Source: Chryseolinea sp. H1M3-3 (lineage in GTDB: Bacteria > Bacteroidota > Bacteroidia > Cytophagales > Cyclobacteriaceae). Taken from it: a stretch of DNA of 64,000 bases. Of the stretch, positions 39,464-53,181 are shown piece by piece. The notes under the pieces are model-generated. The model did not search any database. It saw nothing but the letters and a program-made list of their open reading frames with translations, and was not told where the DNA came from. The stretch is taken from assembly GCF_029360725.1 (NCBI RefSeq), contig NZ_JARKMY010000002.1:1-64000 (forward strand), read 5' to 3'. Position 1 is the stretch's first letter. Every line of letters begins with the position of its first letter. A program made the position numbers and the translations under genes.

Positions 39464-40543
39464 TCAATCAAGCCCCGTCAACAAGATAAATGTAAAGCTC
39501 TTCCCCATATAATGATTGAGCACTAGAATATTCTTTAGCCTTTCGGGTAATTGGGTTTTCTTAACTTTCACAACCTCCGGTACTGTTTGATTTTTTAGCA
39601 TAGATGCCCCCAGCCAAAGTGCAAACGCGGTGGCTGTGCAGTACTCTCCGGATAAATGTTTGAACCGCGTTTGAAAGGTGGTATGTAAACTGGACTGAAT
39701 GACCGAATCCAGGATTGCATCATGATCGATATCGCCACTGGCGCCGCTCACAATCAAGTCGATATCCTTCGGTTGAATATGATTTTTGGACAGGAATGTT
39801 TTTAGGGCGTCGTTTAATTCATTCCCTTCAGGCTTATATACAACGTGCATGTCCAGAAGGCCACACCATGTAGAAACCGATTGTTTTCGAGTTAACATAA
39901 AGAAGGCAGAACCTTCACCTTGAATCGATCCTTTCGTAGGGGTCTCAAAAAGTGAAAGGTTGTTGATGCATTCTTTTTTAAAATGTTCTACACGCATGCT
40001 GGCTTTGTATTGGACTTCTGCAGCCTCATCGTAAGCGCCAACCAGAAAATTGGCTGAAGCGTTTTCGTTTAACTGCATCATGACATCAGTCAACGCATTC
40101 TCAAAGGCATATCCTTTGCTTGCAAAGGTGTTATTATAACCCATGCATTTTATTGTTAGCGCAACAAGTCCAGCCAAAGCATTTGACGTGCTTTGCATAA
40201 AGTACGTTGGCGTCAGCTGTTTTTCGTTTTGTTTAAGCACCTCTCCAAGAAATTTTGCAGTCTCGTCTAGGAAACCATATCCAGTCGCTGTGACAATCCC
40301 ATCAGGCATGAATACCTTAGAATCGCGTAGGCATATCGTTGCAGCTGACAGCCCGATCCTAAGCATGCGACTTAAGCGGCGCATTTGTATCGGATTTATA
40401 TAGGCTTTAAAATCCGGCGTTATACAGGTTAAAACATTTTTATCATATTGGGCAACATCGGTCAGAAAGACGTTAGAATCGAAAGTCTTCTGCGGTGAGA
40501 TTATACCTGCACCATTAATAAAATATTCAACCTTTTCTCCCAT
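39464..40543 (-). CDS. Ketosynthase-like protein lacking the active-site Cys
   Basis: The 359-aa product has the beta-ketoacyl synthase fold layout but not its chemistry. The region around the usual nucleophile reads FMQSTSNALAGLVAL, without a cysteine; the second motif reads VSGASGDIDHDAIL instead of HGT; and the third reads HLSGEYCTATAFAL instead of GHxxGAAG. It resembles the inactive partner (chain-length factor) of type II polyketide synthases and aryl-polyene clusters. It lies 4 bases after the active FabF-like ketosynthase and probably forms a heterodimer with it. It is the last gene of the operon. Confidence 0.82.
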   Translation of the reverse strand: MGEKVEYFINGAGIISPQKTFDSNVFLTDVAQYDKNVLTCITPDFKAYINPIQMRRLSRMLRIGLSAATICLRDSKVFMPDGIVTATGYGFLDETAKFLGEVLKQNEKQLTPTYFMQSTSNALAGLVALTIKCMGYNNTFASKGYAFENALTDVMMQLNENASANFLVGAYDEAAEVQYKASMRVEHFKKECINNLSLFETPTKGSIQGEGSAFFMLTRKQSVSTWCGLLDMHVVYKPEGNELNDALKTFLSKNHIQPKDIDLIVSGASGDIDHDAILDSVIQSSLHTTFQTRFKHLSGEYCTATAFALWLGASMLKNQTVPEVVKVKKTQLPERLKNILVLNHYMGKSFTFILLTGLD

Positions 40544-40547
40544 GCCC

Positions 40548-41756
40548 CTACACTGATGCTAAAAGTAGTGAAGATGTATTACCTCCAAATCCGAAAGAAT
40601 TGGATAATACATTCTTTAAGTCAATTTTCTGTTTTAATGTTGTTATTGGTTCAATGCCAAGTTCGGGCATCATATGTTTGTAATTCAAATTTGGCCAGAT
40701 CATTTGATGTTTTATTGCCATCAAACAATAAGCAGCCTCGACACTGCCGGCTGCCGCGAGGGTGTGGCCAGTATACGGTTTGGTTGAACTGAAATATGGA
40801 ATTGTATTGCCAAATACACGTTTCATGCCCAAGCCTTCAGATAGATCATTGTTTTCGGTGGCCGTTCCGTGTGCATTGACATAATCCACTTCGTCCGGGT
40901 TTAATCGGGCAGAAGAAAGCGCTAATTTCATGGCGCTATAAGCTCCTGCACCATCCGGTGAAGAAGCTGTCTGGTGGAAGGCATCGTTTGCATTGCCGTA
41001 ACCTTTCAGTTCTGCAATGGGTTTTCTCTTCTTTCTGTTTACTTCAGCCTCCGATTCCAGCACGAGGTAGCAAGCACCTTCGCCAAGATTGAGTCCACTT
41101 CGTGAGCTGTCAAAAGGGCGGCAATGATCCTTGTCAAGAATCATCAATGCATTAAACCCATTCACGGTGAATTTTGACAATGCTTCTGCGCCCCCGCATA
41201 TTACACGATCAAGTTTATTGTTCTTGATCAGTTGAGCACCGTGCATTAAAGCGTTTGCTGAGGAGGAACATGCAGTGCTGATGGTGCCCAGGTATTTTTT
41301 AATTCCGACATAATCTGCCAATCGTTCACAGTGTTCTCCCGATGTGGCAGTATCTGTAAAGCGAACAAAGTCACCCTGAAGTTCAGGATCCATCAATTCG
41401 TAGTAGAATTTTTCAAATTCGCGTATCCCACCCGTTGTTGTGGCGGAAACCAATCCCGATGTTTTTACTTCTTCGTGTGTTAGTCCTGCATCATTAATTG
41501 CTTCTTGGAGGGAGATCAAACCTAATACGCTTGTCCGTGTAAACCCTTGCTTAGCGTCGACGCCAGCTTGTTCATATAGTTCTTTGTCGGCGAATTTTAC
41601 CTCGCATGCCGATAAGGAATTCCGATGGACGGTTTCCAGAACTTCCAAGGGTCCAAAACCATAATTACCTTTGACAAGCGATTGGAAATTTTCTTCTGCG
41701 TTCTTACCAATGGATGTGATGATGCCAAAACCTGTGATAAACACACGATGACTCAT
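40548..41756 (-). CDS. FabF-like beta-ketoacyl-ACP synthase
   Basis: The 402-aa product is a complete condensing enzyme: nucleophile Cys163 in STACSSSANALMHG, His in NAHGTATENND, second His in KPYTGHTLAAAGS, and GFGGNTSSLLLA at the C-terminus. The start MSHRVFITGFGIITSIGKN is typical of FabF. It overlaps the ACP gene by 4 bases and lies next to a Cys-less partner, a KSalpha/KSbeta-like pair. In this cluster it would extend or condense fatty acyl chains on the dedicated ACP before DarB acts. Housekeeping FabF is possible but the context argues for a specialised role. Confidence 0.92.
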   Translation of the reverse strand: MSHRVFITGFGIITSIGKNAEENFQSLVKGNYGFGPLEVLETVHRNSLSACEVKFADKELYEQAGVDAKQGFTRTSVLGLISLQEAINDAGLTHEEVKTSGLVSATTTGGIREFEKFYYELMDPELQGDFVRFTDTATSGEHCERLADYVGIKKYLGTISTACSSSANALMHGAQLIKNNKLDRVICGGAEALSKFTVNGFNALMILDKDHCRPFDSSRSGLNLGEGACYLVLESEAEVNRKKRKPIAELKGYGNANDAFHQTASSPDGAGAYSAMKLALSSARLNPDEVDYVNAHGTATENNDLSEGLGMKRVFGNTIPYFSSTKPYTGHTLAAAGSVEAAYCLMAIKHQMIWPNLNYKHMMPELGIEPITTLKQKIDLKNVLSNSFGFGGNTSSLLLASV

Positions 41757-42028
41757 ACTTGTGGCCTGTTCTTAGCAATATATTCAGCCATCGTTCGAAT
41801 ACTTTGAAATACGTGACGACCCTCTTTCGGGTCTTTTAATTTAATACCATAATTTCTATCCAAAAGCACGACCAGCTCCAACGAATCGATGGAATCAAGC
41901 CCGAGGCCTTCTCCAAATAGGGGCGTATTCTCATCAAAGCCTTCCGGAAGGGTGTCTTCGAGATTAAGTTGTTTGATGAGCTCTTCCCTGAGTTCTACGA
42001 TAAGTTCATCTATAGTCTGTTGCTTCAT
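41753..42028 (-). CDS. Acyl carrier protein
   Basis: The 91-aa product is an ACP with phosphopantetheine attachment Ser46 in GLGLDSIDSLELVVLLDRN. The sequence is acidic and helical as usual, with a slightly long N-terminal helix (TIDELIVELREELIKQLNLE). The attachment serine is in the 'DSID' form frequent in specialised Bacteroidota lipid clusters. It sits between the ABC exporter genes and the ketosynthases, overlapping the latter by 4 bases, and is probably dedicated to this pathway. Confidence 0.93.
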   Translation of the reverse strand: MKQQTIDELIVELREELIKQLNLEDTLPEGFDENTPLFGEGLGLDSIDSLELVVLLDRNYGIKLKDPKEGRHVFQSIRTMAEYIAKNRPQV

Positions 42029-42049
42029 GGTTTGGTATTTAAAATTTGT

Positions 42050-43321
42050 TTACACAACTGTTCTGGACTTGTGGATAATTACGCTGGTAGCCAGTGCTGC
42101 CATCGCAAAACCCATTAATCGTAAAACATTTGGTAATATGGCGCGTATCGAGGCTTGACGCAAAAATAAATCATTAAAGGATTCCAATCCCCAACTCATG
42201 GGAGAAAATCGGCTAACGGTCTGTAAAATCTCGGGCATCACATACACGGGCACCCAAACACCTCCGATGGCCGAAAGAATTACAACCGACACAGACCCAA
42301 AAGAAAGCGCTTGCTGCGGCGTACGGAAATATACTGCTATCAGCACGCCATATCCTGTGGCTGCCATCGCAACGGAGCTGGCCGTAAGCAATATACCTAA
42401 CGGATTGCTGCCCAGTACAAGTTTTGTTAAGCCGAGCAATGGCATGATGTAAATGCCGACGGCAATCATTAATACAAATTGCAAAAGGCATATCATGAAA
42501 TAGAAACCAAACTTGCCTGAAATTACAGGCCATTGCGATCCTGAAATGAGTCGAAGACGAAGCATGCTTCCTTCTTCTCTTTCCTTGATAAAATTTCCGG
42601 CCAAGGGATAAAGGATAAAGAACATGGCAAACATGGTCCATGCAGGAACATTATGCTGTACAGAATTCAACATCAATCCCTGGTATTTATTTTCCGATGC
42701 ATAGCGCTCGTCGATGCGCATGATCTTGGTGATGTCAAAAGTAATTTTTTGGGGTGCTTCTTCTCTTCCCTCGCTCAGCTGTTGTTGTAGTTCGTCTAGC
42801 ACCCACTCGGTTTGCACATTTGCTGCAATTTTTTCTACCGCGCCCGATAACGCTTGTCTATAATTCGATTTAATAGTGGGATCAAAAAATATTTTAATAT
42901 CAATGACTGGAAGTGTGGCGGAGTCAGTTTCGGCTGAAAAGCCAAAATTGGCAAACACCCTTGAAATTAACTGTTTTGTTTTTCGCCGCAGATCGGCACT
43001 TGCATTTTTCGGAAGTACAATAGCCGCTTTAAAATTTCCCGCCTGAACAAGTTTCTTTGCTTCCGTGGTATCGTTTTTTACGATTAGGCTAACATTGGGA
43101 GAAGCCTTAAAAGCCTTCAATACTTTGGCACTTAATGAATCGCGATCCTGATCAACAAAAATTACTTCAAGTTTTATTTCCTGGTAGTCCCTAAATGGTG
43201 CGTCTTGTACCAATGCCATTACAATTACTAGTGCAAGCGGCATGATAAAAATTAGGGCCATCCCTCCGGGATCACGGATCAGCAGCAGAAACTCCTTATA
43301 TATGGTGGCTAAAATTTTCAA
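42050..43321 (-). CDS. ABC-2 type transporter permease
   Basis: The 423-aa product has one N-terminal membrane helix (GGMALIFIMPLALVIVMALV), a large extracytoplasmic domain (about residues 45-200) and five further helices near the C-terminus, the layout of ABC-2 exporters such as those for drugs, polysaccharides and lipids. IKEREEGSMLRLRLISGSQ is the typical coupling region. Translation appears to start at TTG 43321 within the stop of the ATPase gene (TTGA), a coupled arrangement. It probably exports or flips the lipid made by the surrounding enzymes. Confidence 0.88.
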   Translation of the reverse strand: MKILATIYKEFLLLIRDPGGMALIFIMPLALVIVMALVQDAPFRDYQEIKLEVIFVDQDRDSLSAKVLKAFKASPNVSLIVKNDTTEAKKLVQAGNFKAAIVLPKNASADLRRKTKQLISRVFANFGFSAETDSATLPVIDIKIFFDPTIKSNYRQALSGAVEKIAANVQTEWVLDELQQQLSEGREEAPQKITFDITKIMRIDERYASENKYQGLMLNSVQHNVPAWTMFAMFFILYPLAGNFIKEREEGSMLRLRLISGSQWPVISGKFGFYFMICLLQFVLMIAVGIYIMPLLGLTKLVLGSNPLGILLTASSVAMAATGYGVLIAVYFRTPQQALSFGSVSVVILSAIGGVWVPVYVMPEILQTVSRFSPMSWGLESFNDLFLRQASIRAILPNVLRLMGFAMAALATSVIIHKSRTVV

Positions 43322-44067
43322 TCGCGAATATTTTTACCTGTCAATTTTAAAAATACCTGTTCAAGGTTTTTGCAGTCATCGTGTGCACCCATGATCGAAG
43401 TGCGGGTTCCTGTGGAAATCAATTTACCCTCATCGATAATTCCCAAATGCGAGCAAATTCTTTCAACTTCTTCCAATACATGTGAGGAATAAATGATCGT
43501 CGTACCCTCCTTCTTCAAGGTTTCCAGGAAATCGAGGATCATGTTTCGCGATTGTACATCTACCCCAGCCGTTGGTTCGTCGAGTATAATAAGTTTTGGC
43601 TGATGGAGTAAGGCAGCAATAAGGTTCAGCCTTTTTTTCATGCCGCCCGAAAATGTCGATACTATTTTATTTCCTTTTTCACTTAAACCAAAAACCTGTA
43701 AATATTTTTTAATCTGCGCACGAATTTCTGAGGCTTTCAACCCATACATACGGCCAAAATAAAACAGATTTTCATAGGCAGTGAGGGTTGGGAATAGCGC
43801 TATTTCCTGAGGTGCTACGCCAATGTGTTTTCGGATATCGGCACCATTTTCCATCACATCTGTGCCGAAGACAGAGATGGATCCCGAATCCGGACGCATA
43901 AGACCGCATAGCATCATGACTGTGGTAGATTTTCCCGCGCCATTGGGACCCAGTAAACCGAACACCGATCCTTCCTGAATTTCGAGTGTTAATTCTGAAA
44001 CAGCGCGTTTAGCTGAGTTGGGGTACTGCTTCGTGATGCTATCTAATCGTATGGCCCCTGTACTCAT
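43318..44067 (-). CDS. ABC transporter ATP-binding protein
   Basis: The 249-aa product has Walker A GPNGAGKSTTVMM, signature TFSGGMKKRLNLIAAL, Walker B LIILDEPTAGVD and the switch His in SSHVLEE. The sequence resembles the DrrA/CcmA group that pairs with ABC-2 permeases. It overlaps the genes on both sides by 4 bases, so BtrH-like protein, ATPase and permease are coupled. Export of the lipid product is inferred from context. Confidence 0.93.
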   Translation of the reverse strand: MSTGAIRLDSITKQYPNSAKRAVSELTLEIQEGSVFGLLGPNGAGKSTTVMMLCGLMRPDSGSISVFGTDVMENGADIRKHIGVAPQEIALFPTLTAYENLFYFGRMYGLKASEIRAQIKKYLQVFGLSEKGNKIVSTFSGGMKKRLNLIAALLHQPKLIILDEPTAGVDVQSRNMILDFLETLKKEGTTIIYSSHVLEEVERICSHLGIIDEGKLISTGTRTSIMGAHDDCKNLEQVFLKLTGKNIRD

Positions 44068-45071
44068 TTTGATTTGCTAACTTCATAGAGTTGGCGGAAA
44101 ATTTCATGTTCCTCCGCAGCGCAAGCTTCCAGCATGTCAGCGAGTTCAGCAAAAGTTTTGGTATCCGACTTGCGATTTTTACAAACTCTTCCGGCGTAAT
44201 ATGCAAAATCGCGAAGCTGATCCCCGCTTTTTGTAAGTTGCCTGGAAAGGTTGAAAAGTTTGTCATTCTCTAATTTCGCACTTGCCTGATCAAGGAAGGC
44301 TGCATAGATAAAACGAAATCCCGCGCCGCCTGTTCCAATCTCCTCCTGCATCCTTATAAGATTACCTAACCATTGAATGGCCTTTCGATCGCCGATTCGT
44401 TCTGGCCAGTATCTCAACCGTTTTGAAAGATATTTCATGCCTTTGGAGCCGACGATGGGTACTGGTATACGCGTCATATTGTCGCTCGTTTGTTTAATGC
44501 CTTTCCATAATGCTTTCTCCAGGCTGAAGTCTTTTGGCACTTCAACGGGATAATACATCCGGCCGCTGGGTTCGGGCATTCCTTTTGCAAAGCGCGCGCG
44601 AACAAGGTCGTCATAAGATATCTCCGTTGTGTATTCCATTACCGGATCGCTCACCAGGTATTTTCCGTTTTCTTTTCCAAAGACAATCAGGTTATGGGCA
44701 TTGAAATGAAAACGGTATGCGGCAGGAAGATAATTCAGGTAAAACACGGATGTAAGCATTCCGACCGGTTGGCCTTTCTCCAGCATCTGATCGAGGGCCG
44801 TCATGGCCTTTGTTGGATTAGAAAATTTTTTAGTCTCGATTTTAATGCCGATGCGATCGGCGAAACGTTTAAAGATTTGCCCTGGCCAAATCCGGTAAGC
44901 AGCTACAGGGATACCGTTAACCTTAATAAACGGCAGGTAGGAAAAGAATAAACCAGAGCCGATCCCAAAGACCATTGGCTCATCGAATTCTAATCCATGA
45001 AAGCGCAACAGATTTGAAACGACACCACTTTCACAGTGTGCAGATTGTTTGTGAGTGAAGTTAACGATCAT
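44064..45071 (-). CDS. BtrH-like acyltransferase/peptidase-fold protein
   Basis: The 335-aa product has an N-terminal domain like BtrH of butirosin synthesis, a papain-like fold that moves an acyl group from an ACP to an acceptor. A Cys-His-Asp set is visible: Cys13 in SAHCESGVVSNLLRFHG, His126 in FNAHNLIVFG and Asp142 in LVSDPVMEY. The C-terminal half (from about 165, FSLEKALWKGIKQTSDNMTR) matches the helical DUF4872-type extension. It overlaps the ATPase gene by 4 and the upstream gene by 11 bases. It probably transfers or releases an acyl group in the resorcinol pathway; the substrate is unknown. Confidence 0.85.
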   Translation of the reverse strand: MIVNFTHKQSAHCESGVVSNLLRFHGLEFDEPMVFGIGSGLFFSYLPFIKVNGIPVAAYRIWPGQIFKRFADRIGIKIETKKFSNPTKAMTALDQMLEKGQPVGMLTSVFYLNYLPAAYRFHFNAHNLIVFGKENGKYLVSDPVMEYTTEISYDDLVRARFAKGMPEPSGRMYYPVEVPKDFSLEKALWKGIKQTSDNMTRIPVPIVGSKGMKYLSKRLRYWPERIGDRKAIQWLGNLIRMQEEIGTGGAGFRFIYAAFLDQASAKLENDKLFNLSRQLTKSGDQLRDFAYYAGRVCKNRKSDTKTFAELADMLEACAAEEHEIFRQLYEVSKSK

Positions 45072-45480
45072 TTTTTCTGAGTGATTCTATATCGGTGAGC
45101 TCTTCAACGGTTATGCGGAACGTGTATGCGTATCGCTCCAATGTCTTCCGGGAAAGTTTATTAAAAAAATATGGATAACAATGCAGTCTTACCATGAAGC
45201 CAAACGTTGAGGCATAGCTGGCTACCATTGCATGGGTCATGATATTTTTTCTGATGTGGTACAACAGCGGGCTGGCTTTGCCTTGTAATACTTTTGTTCG
45301 GGCTTCTTCTACCTCGTCAAACACCACATCCCATGCTTGCTGCATGGCCACTGTCTCAGGCTCCCACCCAATGCTATTTACTTTAACATAGTGGCCTTTG
45401 TCGTCAGTTGCATAGTAGAGTTTTGCAAGCTTGCCTTCGTTTAGGTTTACCTGATCTTGTGGTACCTGATCTTTTTCCAT
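45061..45480 (-). CDS. Small conserved protein of the DAR cluster
   Basis: The 139-aa product is hydrophilic and mainly helical: EPETVAMQQAWDVVFDEVEE, GKASPLLYHIRKNIMTHAMV, and the C-terminal SRKTLERYAYTFRITVEEL. No signal peptide or known catalytic motif is seen. The C-terminal stretch could resemble a helix-turn-helix, but the rest does not fit a regulator. It overlaps the BtrH-like gene by 11 bases and is 74 bases downstream of DarB, so it belongs to the operon. An accessory or scaffold function is a guess. Confidence 0.75.
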   Translation of the reverse strand: MEKDQVPQDQVNLNEGKLAKLYYATDDKGHYVKVNSIGWEPETVAMQQAWDVVFDEVEEARTKVLQGKASPLLYHIRKNIMTHAMVASYASTFGFMVRLHCYPYFFNKLSRKTLERYAYTFRITVEELTDIESLRKNDR

Positions 45481-45554
45481 ATTGTGATCCGTTTGAGGTT
45501 CATTTTTAAGAAGTACGTCAGAAAACTTTCATCATATAACGGATAACGGGGTGG

Positions 45555-46694
45555 CTAAACTACTGTTAACAAAATGTATGCATAATTAAACCGTGCGCTT
45601 TCCGGAACCATCATCAATAGCTGATCATCTTTCTTCAGCTTACCAGAATTAAATAATTCTTCCAGCATAAGGAAAGGTGAGGCAGCACCTACATTGCCTA
45701 CCCACGACAAGTTTGTAAACCATTTTGAAGACGGAATATTCAATCCTATTAATTCCAGCTCTTTCGCGATGCGGGAAGCAAAATATTGAGACGAAAGATG
45801 CGGCAGGAAGTACGTTACTTTTTCGGGATCGAACTTTTTTGATGCAGCGAGATCCTTCAGAAGCTGTCCGCCTTTTTTTACAATAAAATCGCCAAGCAAT
45901 TTAGTATCCTGTTTGATGGCAAAGACAGACTCACCCGTCCATACATCCTGATCCAAATCACTCCATCCGATGAATTCACCGGCCTCATCTTTTATCGCAC
46001 CAGCATACATACAAGCAGGCAGTTCGTGCGCAAAGGATCGTTGTTCTATCCATTCTATCTTAAGGGATAAACTATTTGCATTAGGCATATCTTGCAGTAA
46101 TGCTGCGCTGGCGCCATCCGATAGCATGAAACGTAGAAAGTCCTTTTCAAAAGCGATAATTCCATCACCCTCCAGTTGAGCAACCTTTTCGCCTTCTTCT
46201 TTGAAATATTTTGCGAGCATCCAGATGGAAAATCGTTCTGAGCCGGTACACACTGCGTTAGACGCGGTACCGGACAGGATAGAAAGATATCCAAACTTTA
46301 ATGCTTGTATACCTGCACTGCAGGCCCCCGTAGTAGAATTGATCTCAACAGGATTTCCCCCAAGCGCGCCATGAACCATTGCGGCATGTGCAGGTAAAAG
46401 CTGATCGGGTGACGTTGTTCCACAAGACAAAACTTCAATGTCTTCCAAGCCAAAACTCTTATCAAAAAGTTTTTCGACAGCTAATTTTGTCAGCTCTGTA
46501 TTGGTATGGGTAGGATTTCCCTCTTTGTCGGAAGCGTAATACCTGGTTTTAATTTGATTATTGCGTAAAATAAGAGGCTTCGCCTTGGATGCTTGATTAT
46601 TGATCTTCCCGAGAATATTCTCCATCTCGTCATTAGACACGGGATCATTAGGTAAGAAACTTGCTAATTTGGTTATGTAAACACTCCTATTCAT
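45555..46694 (-). CDS. darB: KASIII-type condensing enzyme, DarB-like
   Basis: The 379-aa product is a ketoacyl synthase III homologue with catalytic Cys125 in STTGACSAGIQAL, His in YFLPHLSSQYF and Asn in NLSWVGNVGAASP. In dialkylresorcinol and flexirubin biosynthesis, DarB joins two beta-ketoacyl-type units to a cyclohexanedione, and DarA then aromatises it. The adjoining DarA homologue makes this more likely than housekeeping FabH, and the sequence is longer than FabH (about 320 aa). It follows darA after about 215 bases in the same orientation. Confidence 0.82.
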   Translation of the reverse strand: MNRSVYITKLASFLPNDPVSNDEMENILGKINNQASKAKPLILRNNQIKTRYYASDKEGNPTHTNTELTKLAVEKLFDKSFGLEDIEVLSCGTTSPDQLLPAHAAMVHGALGGNPVEINSTTGACSAGIQALKFGYLSILSGTASNAVCTGSERFSIWMLAKYFKEEGEKVAQLEGDGIIAFEKDFLRFMLSDGASAALLQDMPNANSLSLKIEWIEQRSFAHELPACMYAGAIKDEAGEFIGWSDLDQDVWTGESVFAIKQDTKLLGDFIVKKGGQLLKDLAASKKFDPEKVTYFLPHLSSQYFASRIAKELELIGLNIPSSKWFTNLSWVGNVGAASPFLMLEELFNSGKLKKDDQLLMMVPESARFNYAYILLTVV

Positions 46695-46909
46695 TCTCTG
46701 CTATAAGTTTGCGGTCTTTGTTGCCAGTTTTTATAAGGGCAATTTGAGTTCGAAAGTACTTCTTTCCTATAAGAATTAAAAAATTTAAAGCCTTTTTGGG
46801 GTCATCGACAACGTATGGTAATTGGTGAAACCTGATAGTGATAACGTACTAACACCTTGGTATTACAAAAAATTTCGTCTTGTACCTTTTTCAATTTTTA
46901 AAAATGATC

Positions 46910-47830
46910 TTAATTGTTGCGTAGCGAATTCTGTTTATAATACTCAACATCCTGTATTAGTTCTTTCCTTTTTACAGTTAGCAAAATCCGTGAGAGCATC
47001 CACAATAATGGGGACAAAACAAAAATTGCCGCAGGTAATAAATACATAAAAATGTAAACCCTGATTTTCCTTCCTGTCGAGTGGACAGGCCCACCGGAAG
47101 CAATAAATTTAGACCACACCGAGAAAGCTTTTTGCCCACGTCGTTCCAACAACACCAGGTTGGGTTTAATGTCTATAGCCCCCGCTTCATTTAATTTTGT
47201 CTGCAAGTTTTCTAGCTCATTTTTTACAAGAGCTTGATTAATAATTTCCCCAAAGGTTTGGGTATGCTCTATATCACGATCGGAAACTCCGGCGGCGGGA
47301 AAAATCCAGAAAGGTTTTTTGTCGCCGGTAAACATCCATCTCAGGATCGTAATCAAGCTTGTTAAGTTAGCCGATCGGTCCATGAGCGCGATATGGCCAA
47401 TGAGTTTTGCGTCAGCTTCTTTTAATTTTTTCTTCACTTTTTCCTGAGCGCCGAGCCACATGTTTCGACAACCCAGAACCGTTACCACTGGTTTATCAGA
47501 TAATACCCGTCGGCCTTCCGCACTTTGTAAAAATGAACTAACCGGCCTTGAAGGAGTAAGAAACCACGGCTGATAGCCTAAGATGACTAAGTCATATCCG
47601 TTTGCAGCTTTGGAGGATATATTTTTTAAAGATTGGGGCTTCTGACTGAACACCTCCGGAAATGCATTGAAAAACTGATATGAGCTCCATGGAAAAGGAA
47701 ACTTTTCCTCAGGTTGTATCTCTTCAAAGTGTATAGTATGCCCTGCGTGAATGAGAGGTTTTGCAAGTGATTGAAGTATGGACAACAGTTGTCCGGATTG
47801 TGTATAGTATAAGATGAGGATTCTTTTCAT
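46910..47830 (-). CDS. darA: DarA-like dialkylresorcinol-forming (aromatising) enzyme
   Basis: The product is about 306 aa. ATG at 47830 is chosen because MKRILILYYTQSGQL is a flavodoxin-like FMN-binding start; the frame could extend 9 codons upstream. The flavodoxin-type core (YDLVILGYQPWFLTPSRP, VVTVLGCRNMWLGAQEKV) is followed by a C-terminal hydrophobic segment (IFMYLLPAAIFVLSPLLWML) that may bind the membrane. These are features of proteins annotated as dialkylresorcinol condensing enzyme DarA, which aromatise the DarB product. It is the first gene of the leftward operon. Confidence 0.82.
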   Translation of the reverse strand: MKRILILYYTQSGQLLSILQSLAKPLIHAGHTIHFEEIQPEEKFPFPWSSYQFFNAFPEVFSQKPQSLKNISSKAANGYDLVILGYQPWFLTPSRPVSSFLQSAEGRRVLSDKPVVTVLGCRNMWLGAQEKVKKKLKEADAKLIGHIALMDRSANLTSLITILRWMFTGDKKPFWIFPAAGVSDRDIEHTQTFGEIINQALVKNELENLQTKLNEAGAIDIKPNLVLLERRGQKAFSVWSKFIASGGPVHSTGRKIRVYIFMYLLPAAIFVLSPLLWMLSRILLTVKRKELIQDVEYYKQNSLRNN

Positions 47831-48003
47831 TGAGGTTCTTTTCCAATCAAGCCGCAAAGTAAAAGTTTTTTTACAGCATTCTTTTTAATCACCATACTGG
47901 GTGTACCATATTTTAATGGATCGAATTTTTTGGAAATAATCGATGTCAAGACCCCTAGCACAGATATCCGGCCTGTTAATACTCTGTACTGCAATCGATT
48001 TTC

Positions 48004-48117: not shown

Positions 48118-49458
48118 ATGAAAGCTACCAAAATTAGTCTGTTGGATTTTAAATCGGTTCCCATGCGGACTTTTCACATCACCTGGATAACCTTTTTTCT
48201 TTGTTTTTTTGGCTGGTTTGGAATTGCCCCATTGATGCCGATTGTGCGTGAAGACCTGGGACTCACCAAGGGGCAAATTGGCAACATCATTATCGCATCT
48301 GTAGCGATCACCATATTTGCTCGCCTTTTTTTTGGTTGGCTATGCGATAAAATCGGACCACGCATCGCGTATACAAGTTTACTTTTAATAGGCTCCCTGC
48401 CGGTTATCTTCATTGGGTTTAGCAACAGCTATGAATCCTTTCTTTTGTTCCGGTTAGCCATTGGTCTTATTGGGGCGTCATTCGTAATTACCCAATATCA
48501 CACGTCGGTGATGTTCGCTCCGAATGTCGTTGGCACTGCGAATGCTACCGCAGCAGGCTGGGGGAATATGGGCGGCGGAGTAACGTTGATGGTTATGCCC
48601 CTGGTGTTTGCTGCATTCGTAGGAATGGGGTATCTAAATGAACAAGCATGGAGATACAGCATGGTGATTCCAGGCATAGCGTTGTTTGTTATGGGAATTG
48701 TATATTATTTTTTCACACAAGATACGCCAGACGGCAATCTGCGGGATCTGCGGAAATCCAATCCTGACTATAAGGCAAAAGCAAAAGATTCTAAAGGCAG
48801 TTTCTTAAGCGCGTGCCGGGATTACCGGGTATGGGTACTCTTTCTGGCATATGGGGCTTGCTTTGGCATAGAAATCACTATCGACAATATTGCTACGTTA
48901 TATTTTGTCGACTACTTCGATCTTGGCCTTAAGGAAGCAGGAATTATTGCAGGCACTTTTGGCATGATGAATATTTTTGCCCGCGCATTGGGCGGGATAT
49001 TCGGAGACAAGGCAGGCAAAAAATGGGGGTTGAAAGGAAGGATTTTTATCCTCGGAATCTTCCTTTTGCTGGAAGGTCTCGGAATCATGCTTTTTTCCAC
49101 AATGGACGTGTTGGTATGGGCTATCGCAACCATGTTGCTATTTGCGCTATTTCTTAAAATGTCAAATGGTGCGACCTATTCAGTCGTGCCCTTCATTAAC
49201 CAAAAGGCTATGGGCGCGGTATCTGGGATTGTTGGCGCTGGTGGTAACGTAGGGGCTGTACTTGCAGGTTTCTTATTTACTTCTGAAACGATCTCCTATC
49301 GCGAAAGCCTCTTCTTCATCGGAATAGCTGTAACACTGGTTTCATTCGTTTCACTTGCGTTGAGCTTTTCCAAAAATGTTAATCCCGATACCGTGCATGT
49401 GGATACAAAATCGGAATCTCGGCAGCCAAAGCCAGTTTTGAAGGAGGCTATCGCCTAA
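48118..49458 (+). CDS. narK: NarK/NasA-type nitrate/nitrite MFS transporter
   Basis: The 446-aa product has 12 membrane segments and the two nitrate signature regions of this MFS branch: TAAGWGNMGGGVTLMVMP in segment 5 and SGIVGAGGNVGAVLAGFLF in segment 11. LGLTKGQIGNIIIASVAITI and FFGWLCDKIGPR are also typical. It imports nitrate (or exchanges nitrate and nitrite) across the inner membrane. It is the first gene after the TACGTA-bearing promoter and leads the nitrate cluster. The basic C-terminal tail is short. Confidence 0.93.
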   Translation: MKATKISLLDFKSVPMRTFHITWITFFLCFFGWFGIAPLMPIVREDLGLTKGQIGNIIIASVAITIFARLFFGWLCDKIGPRIAYTSLLLIGSLPVIFIGFSNSYESFLLFRLAIGLIGASFVITQYHTSVMFAPNVVGTANATAAGWGNMGGGVTLMVMPLVFAAFVGMGYLNEQAWRYSMVIPGIALFVMGIVYYFFTQDTPDGNLRDLRKSNPDYKAKAKDSKGSFLSACRDYRVWVLFLAYGACFGIEITIDNIATLYFVDYFDLGLKEAGIIAGTFGMMNIFARALGGIFGDKAGKKWGLKGRIFILGIFLLLEGLGIMLFSTMDVLVWAIATMLLFALFLKMSNGATYSVVPFINQKAMGAVSGIVGAGGNVGAVLAGFLFTSETISYRESLFFIGIAVTLVSFVSLALSFSKNVNPDTVHVDTKSESRQPKPVLKEAIA

Positions 49459-49547
49459 CTATTAACCCGACCAACTTAACCGAAAAAGTAAAAAGACAAG
49501 AACAATTCCCCGAGGAAAGTTACCAGGTAGCCAACCTCAAAAAAAGA

Positions 49548-49582
49548 GTCCCCTTTCAGAACCACGAATTCTTCCAGGGGAC
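49548..49582 (+). promoter_or_regulatory. Stem-loop in the narK-porin intergenic leader
   Basis: GTCCCCT (49548-49554) pairs perfectly with AGGGGAC (49576-49582) around a 21-base loop. No T run follows, so it is not an intrinsic terminator. It lies 33 bases before the porin gene and could protect an mRNA end or serve as a leader structure. Confidence 0.45.
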
Positions 49583-49614
49583 AAGCATTTAGTTGTAACA
49601 CTAAACTCAAAAAT

Positions 49615-50991
49615 ATGGATAAGAAAACTTACTCACCAATTTTAGCCTTTCTTTTTTGCTTGTGCCTGACGAGCCAACTTCAGGCACAATTCACTGTTTC
49701 CGGACAAATCAGAACACGAACTGAACTCCGGGATGGACAGGGCACACCATCTGTTAAGGACACAGTACCCGCCTTTTTTACCTCGCAACGTACCCGTATC
49801 AACTTTGGATATTCAGCTTACCGATTCAAGCTCTATGCTTCTTTGCAAGATGTAAGAGTCTGGGGACAGGATGCTTCATCCGTGAACCGTATCACCACTG
49901 ATGCTTATGATGGATTTATGGTTCACGAAGCATGGGGAGAAATCAGTTTGGTTGATACAGGAAAAGTTATTAAGAACTTTGCTTTAAAAATCGGTCGTCA
50001 GGAATTGGTATATGATGATGTCCGATTACTTGGAAATCTAGACTGGCTTCAGCAGGCCCGTCGTCATGACGCTGCACTTCTTAAATTTGATCACAACGGC
50101 TGGACTGCTCATCTCGGAGTTGCATATAATCAAAACGCAGAGCGTAAATCAAATCACATATATAACGGTGTACCTACGGGATATCCCGCCAGTACCAACG
50201 GCATGGGGGCGATGTATAAGTCCATGCAGTTTTTATACGTTGCCCGAAAACTTCACTTCGGAAATGCATCGTTACTTGCTTTCAAAGACGACTTCAGTAA
50301 ATTCCATTTTGCAGAGACAGATCTCGAGAGGAAAACGCCCATATACGATAAAGGAGTATGGAGCCGTTTCACGATAGGAGGTCATTTGGTTGGTACCGCG
50401 GCCAGAAAACTTGCCTTTACAGCAAGCGCCTTTTATCAAGGAGGAAAATATCGTGAAGGAACTTCACTCGATGAGTATTTGCTTTCGCTTTCAACCATGT
50501 ACTCGGTCGGAAGGAAATTCAGCTTTGGCCCAGGCGTTGACGTCACCTCCGGGAATAATGGCGCTGATCCTTCAAAGAAGTTTCAACGCTTTGATCCTTT
50601 ATACGGAACACCGCATAAGTTCTGGGGATACATGGACTACTTTTATGTAGCCGATGGATTTGGCCCCAGCGGTCTTGTTAACTACTATTTAAAATCCAAA
50701 TACAAACCAAAAGATAATCTAACCCTTTCATTGGATGTCCACCAATTTGCATTGCCATCTGCCGTAACGAATGAGGCAGGTGTAGCGCTGGATAAATCAT
50801 TAGGAACTGAAATTGATTTTGTGTTTAGCTATGCGATGACGAAGGTAATCAACATTGAAGGGGGATATTCCTCGATGTTTTCTACTTCGACATTGACGTC
50901 GGCCAAGGTTAAGAATGTGAAAAATGCAGATAGCTTTTCAAGCTGGGCATATCTAATGATCTCCATCAAACCTGAATTTGTTTTCAAATAA
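49615..50991 (+). CDS. Outer-membrane porin, alginate-export (AlgE-like) family
   Basis: The 458-aa product has a Sec signal (FLFCLCLTSQLQAQ) and a beta-barrel body: QIRTRTELRDGQG, SQRTRINFGYSAYRFKLYAS, LQDVRVWGQDAS, FALKIGRQELVYDDVRLLG, DWLQQARRHDAALLKFDHNG. These match the alginate_exp/AlgE-like porin family, which in nitrate clusters of Bacteroidota probably serves as a general anion pore. It ends in a strand with terminal Phe (ISIKPEFVFK). It is 17 bases before the nitrate-binding protein gene, so both are probably cotranscribed. Confidence 0.88.
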   Translation: MDKKTYSPILAFLFCLCLTSQLQAQFTVSGQIRTRTELRDGQGTPSVKDTVPAFFTSQRTRINFGYSAYRFKLYASLQDVRVWGQDASSVNRITTDAYDGFMVHEAWGEISLVDTGKVIKNFALKIGRQELVYDDVRLLGNLDWLQQARRHDAALLKFDHNGWTAHLGVAYNQNAERKSNHIYNGVPTGYPASTNGMGAMYKSMQFLYVARKLHFGNASLLAFKDDFSKFHFAETDLERKTPIYDKGVWSRFTIGGHLVGTAARKLAFTASAFYQGGKYREGTSLDEYLLSLSTMYSVGRKFSFGPGVDVTSGNNGADPSKKFQRFDPLYGTPHKFWGYMDYFYVADGFGPSGLVNYYLKSKYKPKDNLTLSLDVHQFALPSAVTNEAGVALDKSLGTEIDFVFSYAMTKVINIEGGYSSMFSTSTLTSAKVKNVKNADSFSSWAYLMISIKPEFVFK

Positions 50992-51008
50992 CCTAAACCG
51001 ACATCCTC

Positions 51009-52256
51009 ATGAAAAACATAAAAACTTATATAAAATCGATTACCTCGTGGTTCTTCCTTCCCGTATTATTGATGGTCCTTACATCATCCAGTCCCTTGAA
51101 TACAGATGTAAGTCAGAAGCCAGTAATTCGTCTTGGAATTATTCCACTTACTGACTGTGCACCCATTGTCATGGCTAAAGAACTAGGGCTGTTTGAAAAA
51201 TATGGTGTCAATGTCGAAATATCCAAAGAAGCTTCCTGGGCTAATGTTAGAGACAAAATTCTGACTGGTGAATTAGAAGGAGCTCATTGTCTTTCCAGTA
51301 TGCCGCTCTCAGTATATACTGGCGTTGGCGGAAAAGCGGGATCTGAAATGAGAATTGCGATGATTCTTAATAATAATGGTCAGGCCATTACATTATCAAA
51401 AGATTTTTGTGGCAAAGTAGGTTTTAAGCAGACCACCAAGGTTGCGCCAGTAGTTGCATCCAAGCTAAAAGCGGATAAAGAAGTTACGTTTGCCATGACT
51501 TTTCCTGGTGGTACACACGATATCTGGTTACGTTACTGGCTAGCAGCTGCAAACGTAAGCCAGAAGACTTCAAAGATCATTACTATTCCTCCACCCCAAA
51601 TGGTTGCTAACATGAAAGTTGGAAACATGGACGGTTTTTGTGTAGGCGAACCGTGGAATGGCGTAGCTGTGAAGCAAAATATCGGATTTACGGAGATATC
51701 AACTCAGGACATCTGGAAACACCATCCTGAAAAAGCATTGGTCGTGAATAAAAAATTTAGTGAGGAAAGAAGAGAAGATTTAAAAGCAGTCATGAAAGCC
51801 GTCCTGGAAGCTTGTAAATGGTTAGACAACAGGGCGAACAGAAAAAAGGCGGCCGAAGTAATCGGAAGAACACCCTATGTCAATGCACCTGCGGACGTAA
51901 TTGAAGCCCGACTATTAGGTGATTACAACCTGGGTTGTAATCAGGGAACTGAAATCTACACCGATGATTACATGCTCTTTCATCGTAGCGGTGAAACCAA
52001 TTTTCCGCGGAAATCTCATGCGATCTGGTTTATGACACAATTTGTAAGATTTGATTATCTAAAAGAAGCCCCGGATTACAAAGCTATTGCTGACAAATTG
52101 ATCATGCAGGATTTATATAAGGAGGTCGCCGCTAGCATGAAGATCAAGATCCCCGATGACGACATGAAGCCGTTCACCATTGATCTTGATAAAGCCAAAT
52201 TTGATCCGAACAGTCCAGGAGAATATTTGAAACAGGTAAAAAGTATTAATCAATAG
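51009..52256 (+). CDS. nrtA: NrtA-like nitrate-binding protein of ABC importer
   Basis: The 415-aa product is a periplasmic binding protein with a signal peptide (SWFFLPVLLMVLTSSSP), no lipobox, and the CmpA/NrtA motifs PVIRLGIIPLTDCAPIVMAK, ASWANVRDKILTGELEGAHC, TFAMTFPGGTHDIWLRYWLA and MVGNMKVGNMDGFCVGEPWN-like NMKVGNMDGFCVGEPW. It binds nitrate (or nitrite/bicarbonate-like anions) for NrtB/NrtD. It is followed by an 11-bp perfect stem-loop before nrtB, which may let this subunit be made in excess over the permease. Confidence 0.92.
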   Translation: MKNIKTYIKSITSWFFLPVLLMVLTSSSPLNTDVSQKPVIRLGIIPLTDCAPIVMAKELGLFEKYGVNVEISKEASWANVRDKILTGELEGAHCLSSMPLSVYTGVGGKAGSEMRIAMILNNNGQAITLSKDFCGKVGFKQTTKVAPVVASKLKADKEVTFAMTFPGGTHDIWLRYWLAAANVSQKTSKIITIPPPQMVANMKVGNMDGFCVGEPWNGVAVKQNIGFTEISTQDIWKHHPEKALVVNKKFSEERREDLKAVMKAVLEACKWLDNRANRKKAAEVIGRTPYVNAPADVIEARLLGDYNLGCNQGTEIYTDDYMLFHRSGETNFPRKSHAIWFMTQFVRFDYLKEAPDYKAIADKLIMQDLYKEVAASMKIKIPDDDMKPFTIDLDKAKFDPNSPGEYLKQVKSINQ

Positions 52257-52263
52257 TATTCAC

Positions 52264-52295
52264 GTCAACCTCGGTCAATGCAGGCCGAGGTTGAC
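52264..52295 (+). other. Perfect intercistronic stem-loop between nrtA and nrtB
   Basis: GTCAACCTCGG (52264-52274) pairs perfectly over 11 bases with CCGAGGTTGAC (52285-52295) around a 10-base loop. It is followed by an A-rich, not T-rich, stretch, so it is not a classical terminator. Its place just after the binding-protein gene fits an mRNA-stabilising element. Confidence 0.75.
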
Positions 52296-52311
52296 TTAAA
52301 AAAATAACAGC

Positions 52312-53181
52312 ATGAAAAGAGCCATAACACTCACAATGACGCTGACAAGAGATTGGATGAAAGGAACTACTCCTTCGTCATCTCAAGGATTGCACACGAC
52401 TATAAAACGAATTATATCCATTTTTACGGGATTATCTTATAACCTTATTGGTATAGTGCTTTTGCTTGGAATTTGGCACGTTGTAAGCCTGGTTACCGAT
52501 GGTGAATTGCCAGGGCCTATCGCAACGTCATCCGTTTTTTGGGAATTGATCAGCAATCCGGTATACGACTATGGACCCAACGATAAAGGTATAGCCTTAC
52601 AGTTATACAGTTCATTGAGCCGTGTGTTTACAGGGTTTATATTAGGATCAATAATAGCCATCCCGATAGGTTTGTTAATGGGGGCAAACTCTTTCTGTCG
52701 AAAGATTTTTTATCCTATTGTGCAAATTTTAAAACCCGTTTCGCCGCTTGCCTGGTTCCCTATTGGCCTGGTTGCGTTTCAATCAGCGAGTGATGCCACG
52801 ATTTTTATCATTGTCATTACTTCCTTATGGCCCACGCTTATTAACACCGCTTTTGGTGTAGCTTCTATACCTGACGATCATAAAAATGTGGCTAAAGCTT
52901 TTGGTTTTTCCAAATGGAAATATCTTACAAAAGTACTTCTGCCATACAGTCTCCCTCATATCATTACTGGACTGCGTCTTAGTATAGGCGTAGCGTGGTT
53001 GGTGATTGTTGCAGGCGAGATGTTGTCAGGAGGTATGGGCATTGGATTTTTTGTGTGGGACAGCTGGAATGCTTTGAGCCTTGAAAAAGTTATTTCAGCG
53101 ATCCTCATCATCGGGCTCGTGGGTCTGTTGCTTGACCGCGTGTTTTCTTACCTGGAAAAGAAAGTTACCTATTCAATCTAA
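52312..53181 (+). CDS. nrtB: NrtB-like nitrate ABC transporter permease
   Basis: The 289-aa product has an N-terminal polar stretch and six membrane segments. The binding-protein-dependent permease motif lies around VAKAFGFSKWKYLTKVLLPYSLPHI (EAA loop), with LKPVSPLAWFPIGLVAFQSA and GVAWLVIVAGEMLSGGMGIG typical of nitrate/sulfonate/taurine permeases. It sits between the binding protein and the ATPase, 11 bases before the latter. The initiator could be one of several nearby Met codons. Confidence 0.92.
   Translation: MKRAITLTMTLTRDWMKGTTPSSSQGLHTTIKRIISIFTGLSYNLIGIVLLLGIWHVVSLVTDGELPGPIATSSVFWELISNPVYDYGPNDKGIALQLYSSLSRVFTGFILGSIIAIPIGLLMGANSFCRKIFYPIVQILKPVSPLAWFPIGLVAFQSASDATIFIIVITSLWPTLINTAFGVASIPDDHKNVAKAFGFSKWKYLTKVLLPYSLPHIITGLRLSIGVAWLVIVAGEMLSGGMGIGFFVWDSWNALSLEKVISAILIIGLVGLLLDRVFSYLEKKVTYSI

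Follow-up and report, generated by a model that had tools for sequence, protein, structure and literature searches.

A nine-gene operon of Chryseolinea sp. H1M3-3 as the probable dialkylresorcinol half of a two-locus flexirubin pathway

Flexirubin is an ester of a dialkylresorcinol (DAR) and a polyene, and it is the reported product of Chitinophaga pinensis, in which darBA (Cpin_6850-6851) and the flx cluster (Cpin_1853-1877) form separate loci (PMC3992019). Here we describe a nine-gene operon on the minus strand, positions 47830-39464, of a 64,000-nucleotide stretch of Chryseolinea sp. H1M3-3 (the window; positions 1 to 64,000 of contig NZ_JARKMY010000002.1, assembly GCF_029360725.1). The operon very probably encodes the DAR half of the flexirubin pathway, the aryl-polyene half being encoded by a separate flx cluster on the same contig at a distance of approximately 285 kb, with the BtrH-like protein DarH as the proposed ester-forming enzyme. 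An earlier note on this DNA had proposed the operon as a candidate for an undescribed pathway, a proposal that gives way to the split published for C. pinensis. The operon is ordinary, since flexirubin is a well-known orange bacterial pigment and the division of its pathway into two loci has already been published.

A separate flx cluster and the published two-locus arrangement

The ketosynthase domain model matches the 6.88-Mb genome, in 19 contigs, at nine places, four of which lie at 332-342 kb of the window's contig (C12). These belong to an flx cluster at 329.4-354.9 kb (L009, L010) that encodes the tyrosine ammonia-lyase FlxA (808.9 bits, cut-off 700), the reductase FlxB (400.6 bits, cut-off 340), the ligase FlxY (671.9 bits, cut-off 520), LolB2_flexi (121.3 bits, cut-off 60) and a FabA-like dehydratase domain (32.6 versus 23), together with LolA, two acyl carrier proteins (ACPs), several ketosynthases (KSs) and an MMPL-type exporter with fused acyltransferase and methyltransferase domains. 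FlxA, FlxY, FlxB and a dehydratase, the set that we take to define a flexirubin pathway, are thus present in one genome. The earlier note had excluded flexirubin because the operon lacks ammonia-lyase, ligase, ketoreductase and dehydratase genes; these functions are found in the distant cluster. Because the flexirubin pathway often occupies two loci, the absence of ammonia-lyase genes from a DAR operon is uninformative on novelty. It is no evidence for a new pathway, and this false lead is removed here. Clusters called from one locus alone will be mistaken for orphan resorcinol clusters. The flx cluster also carries a tryptophan-halogenase-like flavoprotein gene (L010:1119-2363; PF04820, 80.5 bits, cut-off 21), which suggests a halogenated flexirubin.

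The same nine genes in the same order are present in C. pinensis YS-16 (L072), with identities of 38-59% (DarB 58%, DarH 58%, DarG 48%, DarA 45%), and as far as the two loci were compared sequence divergence is their only difference. In both genomes the dar locus stands apart from the flx locus; in YS-16 FlxA is on a different contig from dar, whereas here both loci are on one contig. YS-16 likewise has a KS copy with dar and a second on the FlxA contig. The published experiments, in which darB and darA of C. pinensis expressed in a heterologous host yielded the DAR of flexirubin (PMC3992019), were performed with strain DSM 2588 rather than YS-16.

A similar arrangement is recorded for the dar cluster of Azoarcus sp. 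BH72 (azo0283-0293, arcuflavin) in Table 1 of PMC3949708, a likeness drawn from the published table and not from a sequence comparison. The listed order is darA, darB, darD (conserved hypothetical), darE (BtrH-like), darF (ATPase), darI (permease), darC (ACP), darJ (KS) and darK (hypothetical), and it differs from the operon in that a pair of toxin-antitoxin-like genes separates ATPase and permease; darH in Azoarcus naming is a different gene. The Azoarcus polyene genes also lie away from dar, in mutually unlinked loci, and direct synthesis of a xanthomonadin-like polyene from 3-hydroxybenzoate, whereas the flexirubin polyene is tyrosine-derived (PMC3949708). Comparison with characterised clusters, the check that the earlier note had recommended, thus gives a gene-for-gene match by order in both YS-16 and Azoarcus, the outcome that the note had itself named as refuting its proposal. 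Single flexirubin clusters of Flavobacteriaceae, as in Flavobacterium johnsoniae, share the dar block A-B-G-H-ABC-ABC (for example L129, L132 and L095); they differ in that the block adjoins the flx genes, that a KS2 and a small protein precede the ACP-KS-partner set, and that one such set is seen. With the flx genes in the same genome and the gene order published, a stand-alone undescribed resorcinol pathway was rejected.

Gene content of the operon and the proposed pathway

All nine open reading frames (ORFs) are intact and run in the order DarA-like, DarB, DarG, DarH, ABC ATPase, ABC-2 permease, ACP, KS and Cys-less partner. The earlier note read the genes correctly one by one (DarA, DarB, a small protein, a BtrH-like protein, exporter, ACP, KS and partner), and it was also right in describing a dialkylresorcinol operon that carries an ABC exporter of its own and a BtrH-like acyltransferase. 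Its description of the genes as tightly packed holds from darG onward, where neighbours overlap by 4-11 nucleotides (nt) or sit 4-21 nt apart, and does not hold for the wider darA-darB (215 nt) and darB-darG (74 nt) gaps.

The darA-like gene (46910..47830, minus strand, as for all genes of the operon) encodes a putative DAR aromatase/condensing enzyme of 306 amino acids (aa) from an ATG; an alternative TTG start at 47857 would give 315 aa. The protein has no strong family-model match (in NCBIfam only flavodoxin, E 0.003; in Pfam none), and its assignment, and with it that of a darA-darB pair, is by gene order and by identity to the gene preceding darB in YS-16, the 45% identity covering 302 of the 306 residues. 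The darB gene (45555..46694) encodes a DAR cyclase of 379 aa resembling β-ketoacyl-ACP synthase III (KAS III), with a match to NF053539 (568.5 bits, cut-off 550) and the motifs GACSAG, FLPHLSS and WVGNVGA. For DarB the genome holds a single strong match, the runner-up scoring 32.5 bits, and the DarA-like protein likewise has one match; the operon is therefore the only DAR source found in this genome. Downstream lie darG (45061..45480; a small conserved protein of 139 aa; NF053536, 139 bits, cut-off 70) and darH (44064..45071; 335 aa; NF053550), which encodes a BtrH-related papain-like acyltransferase and proposed resorcinol-polyene ester synthase. They are followed by genes for an ABC transporter ATPase (43318..44067; 249 aa; PF00005, ABC_tran, 123.7 bits), with the Walker A sequence GPNGAGKS and signature SGGMK, and an ABC-2 permease with a TTG start (42050..43321; 423 aa; PF12698, ABC2_membrane_3, 122.3 bits). 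This succession of DarG, DarH and ABC exporter after darB, with DarG-family and DarH models above their cut-offs, identifies a dar operon.

The last three genes encode an ACP (41753..42028; 91 aa; NF006617, 80.4 bits versus cut-off 70) with a PP-binding Pfam match and the phosphopantetheine motif GLDSID, a β-ketoacyl synthase (40548..41756; 402 aa; PF00109 and PF02801, ketoacyl-synt N and C), and a ketosynthase-like, chain-length-factor-like partner (39464..40543; 359 aa; PF13723, 48.8 bits). The KS retains Cys163, His296 and His331, which in the partner are replaced by Gly, Gly and Glu, so that the Cys-His-His residues are complete in one member and all absent from the other. This is the pattern of a KS and chain-length-factor-like pair, as the earlier note had read it in calling them an active ketosynthase and a Cys-less partner.

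In the proposed pathway, DarB would condense two fatty-acid-type thioesters into a cyclohexanedione-type ring, which DarA would aromatise to the 2,5-dialkylresorcinol, a division of labour named in the Azoarcus paper (PMC3949708). Cys13 of DarH would receive the aryl-polyene acyl group, once complete, from a carrier protein and pass it to a resorcinol hydroxyl, yielding the flexirubin ester; the earlier suggestion of a resorcinol coupled to a further group is in our judgement right. The dar ACP, KS and Cys-less partner may either supply the acyl substrate of DarB or carry the acyl group to DarH, and the ABC-2 exporter would move the product or an intermediate outwards. We infer the roles of these last components, and that of DarG.

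Distribution of dar and flx genes and the history of the ACP-KS-partner set

Gene order was counted in 80 named DarH loci, the best 80 of at least 571 confirmed and several of them short; best-match labels flxACP, flxKS3 and flxCLF were taken as ACP, KS and chain-length factor, and matches below 40% of query length were ignored. The six-gene core order is present in 51 of the 80 loci and the full nine-gene order in 15, including that of YS-16. FlxA was found inside the fetched locus in none of these 15. It occurs above its cut-off elsewhere in all nine genomes examined, eight of them from the 15, and each of the nine has two close KS homologues, the second being on the FlxA contig in six.

Across a class survey of 247 genomes (136 genera), DarH is present in 42, strong FlxA in 44 and both in 39 (Fisher p 2.7e-36, uncorrected for kinship). 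The DarH count comprises the matches above cut-off among 47 (G041, G046, G185, G191 and G207 were dropped), and the FlxA count those of at least 683 bits among 217 matched at E<=0.001, 40 of them exceeding the cut-off of 700. DarB matched 48 genomes at E<=1e-100, of which the 43 at E<1e-130 were kept (G011, G031, G181, G192 and G240 were dropped). Where both DarH and FlxA occur, they lie within 24 kb in nine genomes and on one contig 186 and 285 kb apart in two, the latter being this genome; in the remaining 28 they are on different contigs of draft assemblies, which is no proof of distance. All five sampled genomes of the same genus carry both DarH and FlxA; in two of them the genes share a contig, at distances of 0.54 and 4.3 Mb, and in three they are on different contigs. 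Among the 53 other relatives in this sample none has DarH above cut-off and four have FlxA. FlxA above cut-off without DarH was observed in G282, G288, G303 and G304, which possibly make polyene pigments without the resorcinol half. Additionally, dar-type loci (L115, L140) were seen in metagenome-assembled genomes labelled Desulfobacterales and Verrucomicrobia, reflecting either lateral transfer or mis-binning.

These distributions bear on whether the operon might instead make and export a dialkylresorcinol in free form, independently of flx, to act as an antibiotic or signal in the manner of the 2-hexyl-5-propyl resorcinol of Pseudomonas. That the operon has an ACP, a KS pair and an ABC exporter of its own, and its distance from the flx cluster, would fit such a role; we nevertheless consider it very improbable, given the strong conservation of DarH in the operon, the presence of FlxA in 39 of 42 DarH genomes, and the occurrence of the same nine genes in C. 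pinensis, where the DAR produced by DarB and DarA is part of flexirubin.

The operon's ACP, KS and partner are 47, 46 and 35% identical to their counterparts in the genome's own flx cluster. In a KS tree of 45 rows, the dar copy falls among the dar copies of Chitinophaga and its kin (15 rows, support 97/91), and the genome's flx copy among their flx copies (support 100/99). A recent copying of the dar set from the flx set in this genome was rejected (sister pair, approximately unbiased test, p-AU 8.3e-50), in a test made after the first tree had been seen. That first tree, of 49 rows with two far outgroups, placed the Chitinophaga and window dar copies in two separate groups at an unresolved fork; the second omitted four rows (the two outgroups, one identical row and the long branch L057), and the 15-row dar group is present in the second tree only. 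Since dar and flx copies are not sisters, the two sets are old, and this in turn suggests that they perform separate jobs.

A paralogous, non-sister ACP-KS-partner set could build a chain of its own, and DarH might then join the resorcinol to some acyl group that is not the flx polyene, the product being an undescribed lipid. This we regard as more improbable still, given the orthologous dar set of C. pinensis, whose reported product is flexirubin, and the co-occurrence of FlxA and DarH.

DarH, the ester step, DarG and neighbouring genes

DarH matches the NCBIfam model NF053550, 'BtrH-related acyltransferase', at 465.7 bits (cut-off 300), and its Pfam domains are BtrH_N (170.5 bits) and DUF4872. 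BtrH_N is grouped with papain-like enzymes and occurs in an ACP:aminoglycoside acyltransferase (PMC10318531). C13, H126 and D142 are invariant across 19 sequences. The AlphaFold2 model is confident (predicted local distance difference test, pLDDT, 87.4), and all 16 of its Foldseek matches at E<=0.001 are to chains of AziU3/U2 (3), CtaG (8) and CcbD (5), with E-values of 3.2e-10 to 9.8e-6 and, in the fold alignments, identities of 13-14% to CcbD and 12-14% to CtaG. When DarH was compared with solved structures by sequence, only designed coiled coils fell below E 0.1. The spacing of C13, H126 and D142 corresponds to that of the residues altered in the CtaG entries (C11A, H128A, D144N). Predicted fold and Cys-His-Asp residues therefore liken DarH to the CcbD, CtaG and BtrH transacylases, and place it among papain-like carrier-dependent acyltransferases of the BtrH/CcbD type, which combine this fold with Cys-His-Asp/Glu.

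In CcbD, an acyl group bound to a carrier is transferred to an amine through the Cys of a Cys-His-Glu triad (PMC12945683). By analogy, the modelled DarH may load a polyenoyl group from a carrier and esterify a resorcinol hydroxyl; it would differ from CcbD in forming a phenol ester rather than an amide. The more specific proposal, that DarH is a flexirubin ester synthase of BtrH/CcbD/CtaG type fed by the dar ACP, and that the dar ACP-KS-partner set is a paralogue of long standing that has specialised in the resorcinol half, seems to us evenly balanced between right and wrong. Among the literature searched, PMC3949708 was the only source in which BtrH or DarH appears together with flexirubin. 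The DarH fold match makes the ester-forming step open to direct test. A second, lone BtrH/DarH-like gene (G000:C12:1222228-1223163; L177:8195-9175) scores 182.1 bits, below the DarH cut-off, and no dar or ACP gene was recognised by eye among its neighbouring ORFs.

Several observations weigh against the flexirubin assignment or against DarH as its ester-forming enzyme. The top-ranked fold matches of DarH are to AziU3/U2, which is not known to be an acyltransferase. DarH and FlxA do not coincide fully in the survey: three of the 42 DarH genomes have no strong FlxA and five of the 44 FlxA genomes have no DarH above cut-off, mismatches that stem partly from fragmented or incomplete assemblies. 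We infer, rather than observe, flexirubin production by this organism. DarG falls below the cut-off of the narrower model flexirubin_DarG (NF053545; 144.7 bits, cut-off 170), which counts against the narrow sub-family label only, as DarG satisfies the broader family model. The FlxJ-like methyltransferase of the flx cluster (528.5 bits) falls short of the FlxJ cut-off of 560; methylation differs between flexirubins (PMC3992019), so FlxJ is not essential. The products of CcbD are amides, not esters (PMC12945683). Finally, the enzyme proposed for the ester step in C. pinensis is the ligase-like FlxW (PMC3992019), and the flx cluster here encodes a C45-family acyltransferase/hydrolase (215.6 bits, cut-off 85) that could perform it. 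The operon would then still provide the DAR half of flexirubin, an overlap with our reading in all but this one step, and DarH might, for example, load or release an acyl chain for DarB. That DarB went undetected within the fetched DNA of 21 of the 80 DarH loci, many of them short or truncated, also speaks for such a flx-encoded ester enzyme; the predicted fold and invariant Cys-His-Asp of DarH, matching the carrier-dependent CcbD and CtaG, speak against it, and we hold it to be possible but doubtful.

DarG adjoins DarH in 76 of the 80 named loci. The DarG-DarH pairing is kept even where the remaining operon is elsewhere, and in L088, L093, L105, L106, L126, L134 and others the pair stands with no further dar gene recognised within the fetched DNA. 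The AlphaFold2 model of DarG (pLDDT 85.1) gave weak Foldseek matches only (best E 0.041, none at E<=0.001), and comparison with solved structures by sequence gave a best E of 0.5. As a lead and not a result, the C-terminal half of the model resembles a Cro/SinR-type helix-turn-helix; DarG could act as a regulator or represent a reused scaffold.

The Bacteroidota-type consensus promoter pattern TTTG-N17..23-TANNTTTG had no matches in the window, versus 4.0 expected by chance. Beside the operon, on the opposite strand at 48118-53181, lie genes for a NarK-like transporter (306.6 bits, just below the cut-off of 311.7), a porin-like protein, and an ABC substrate-binding protein and permease, a group that we read as nitrate uptake.

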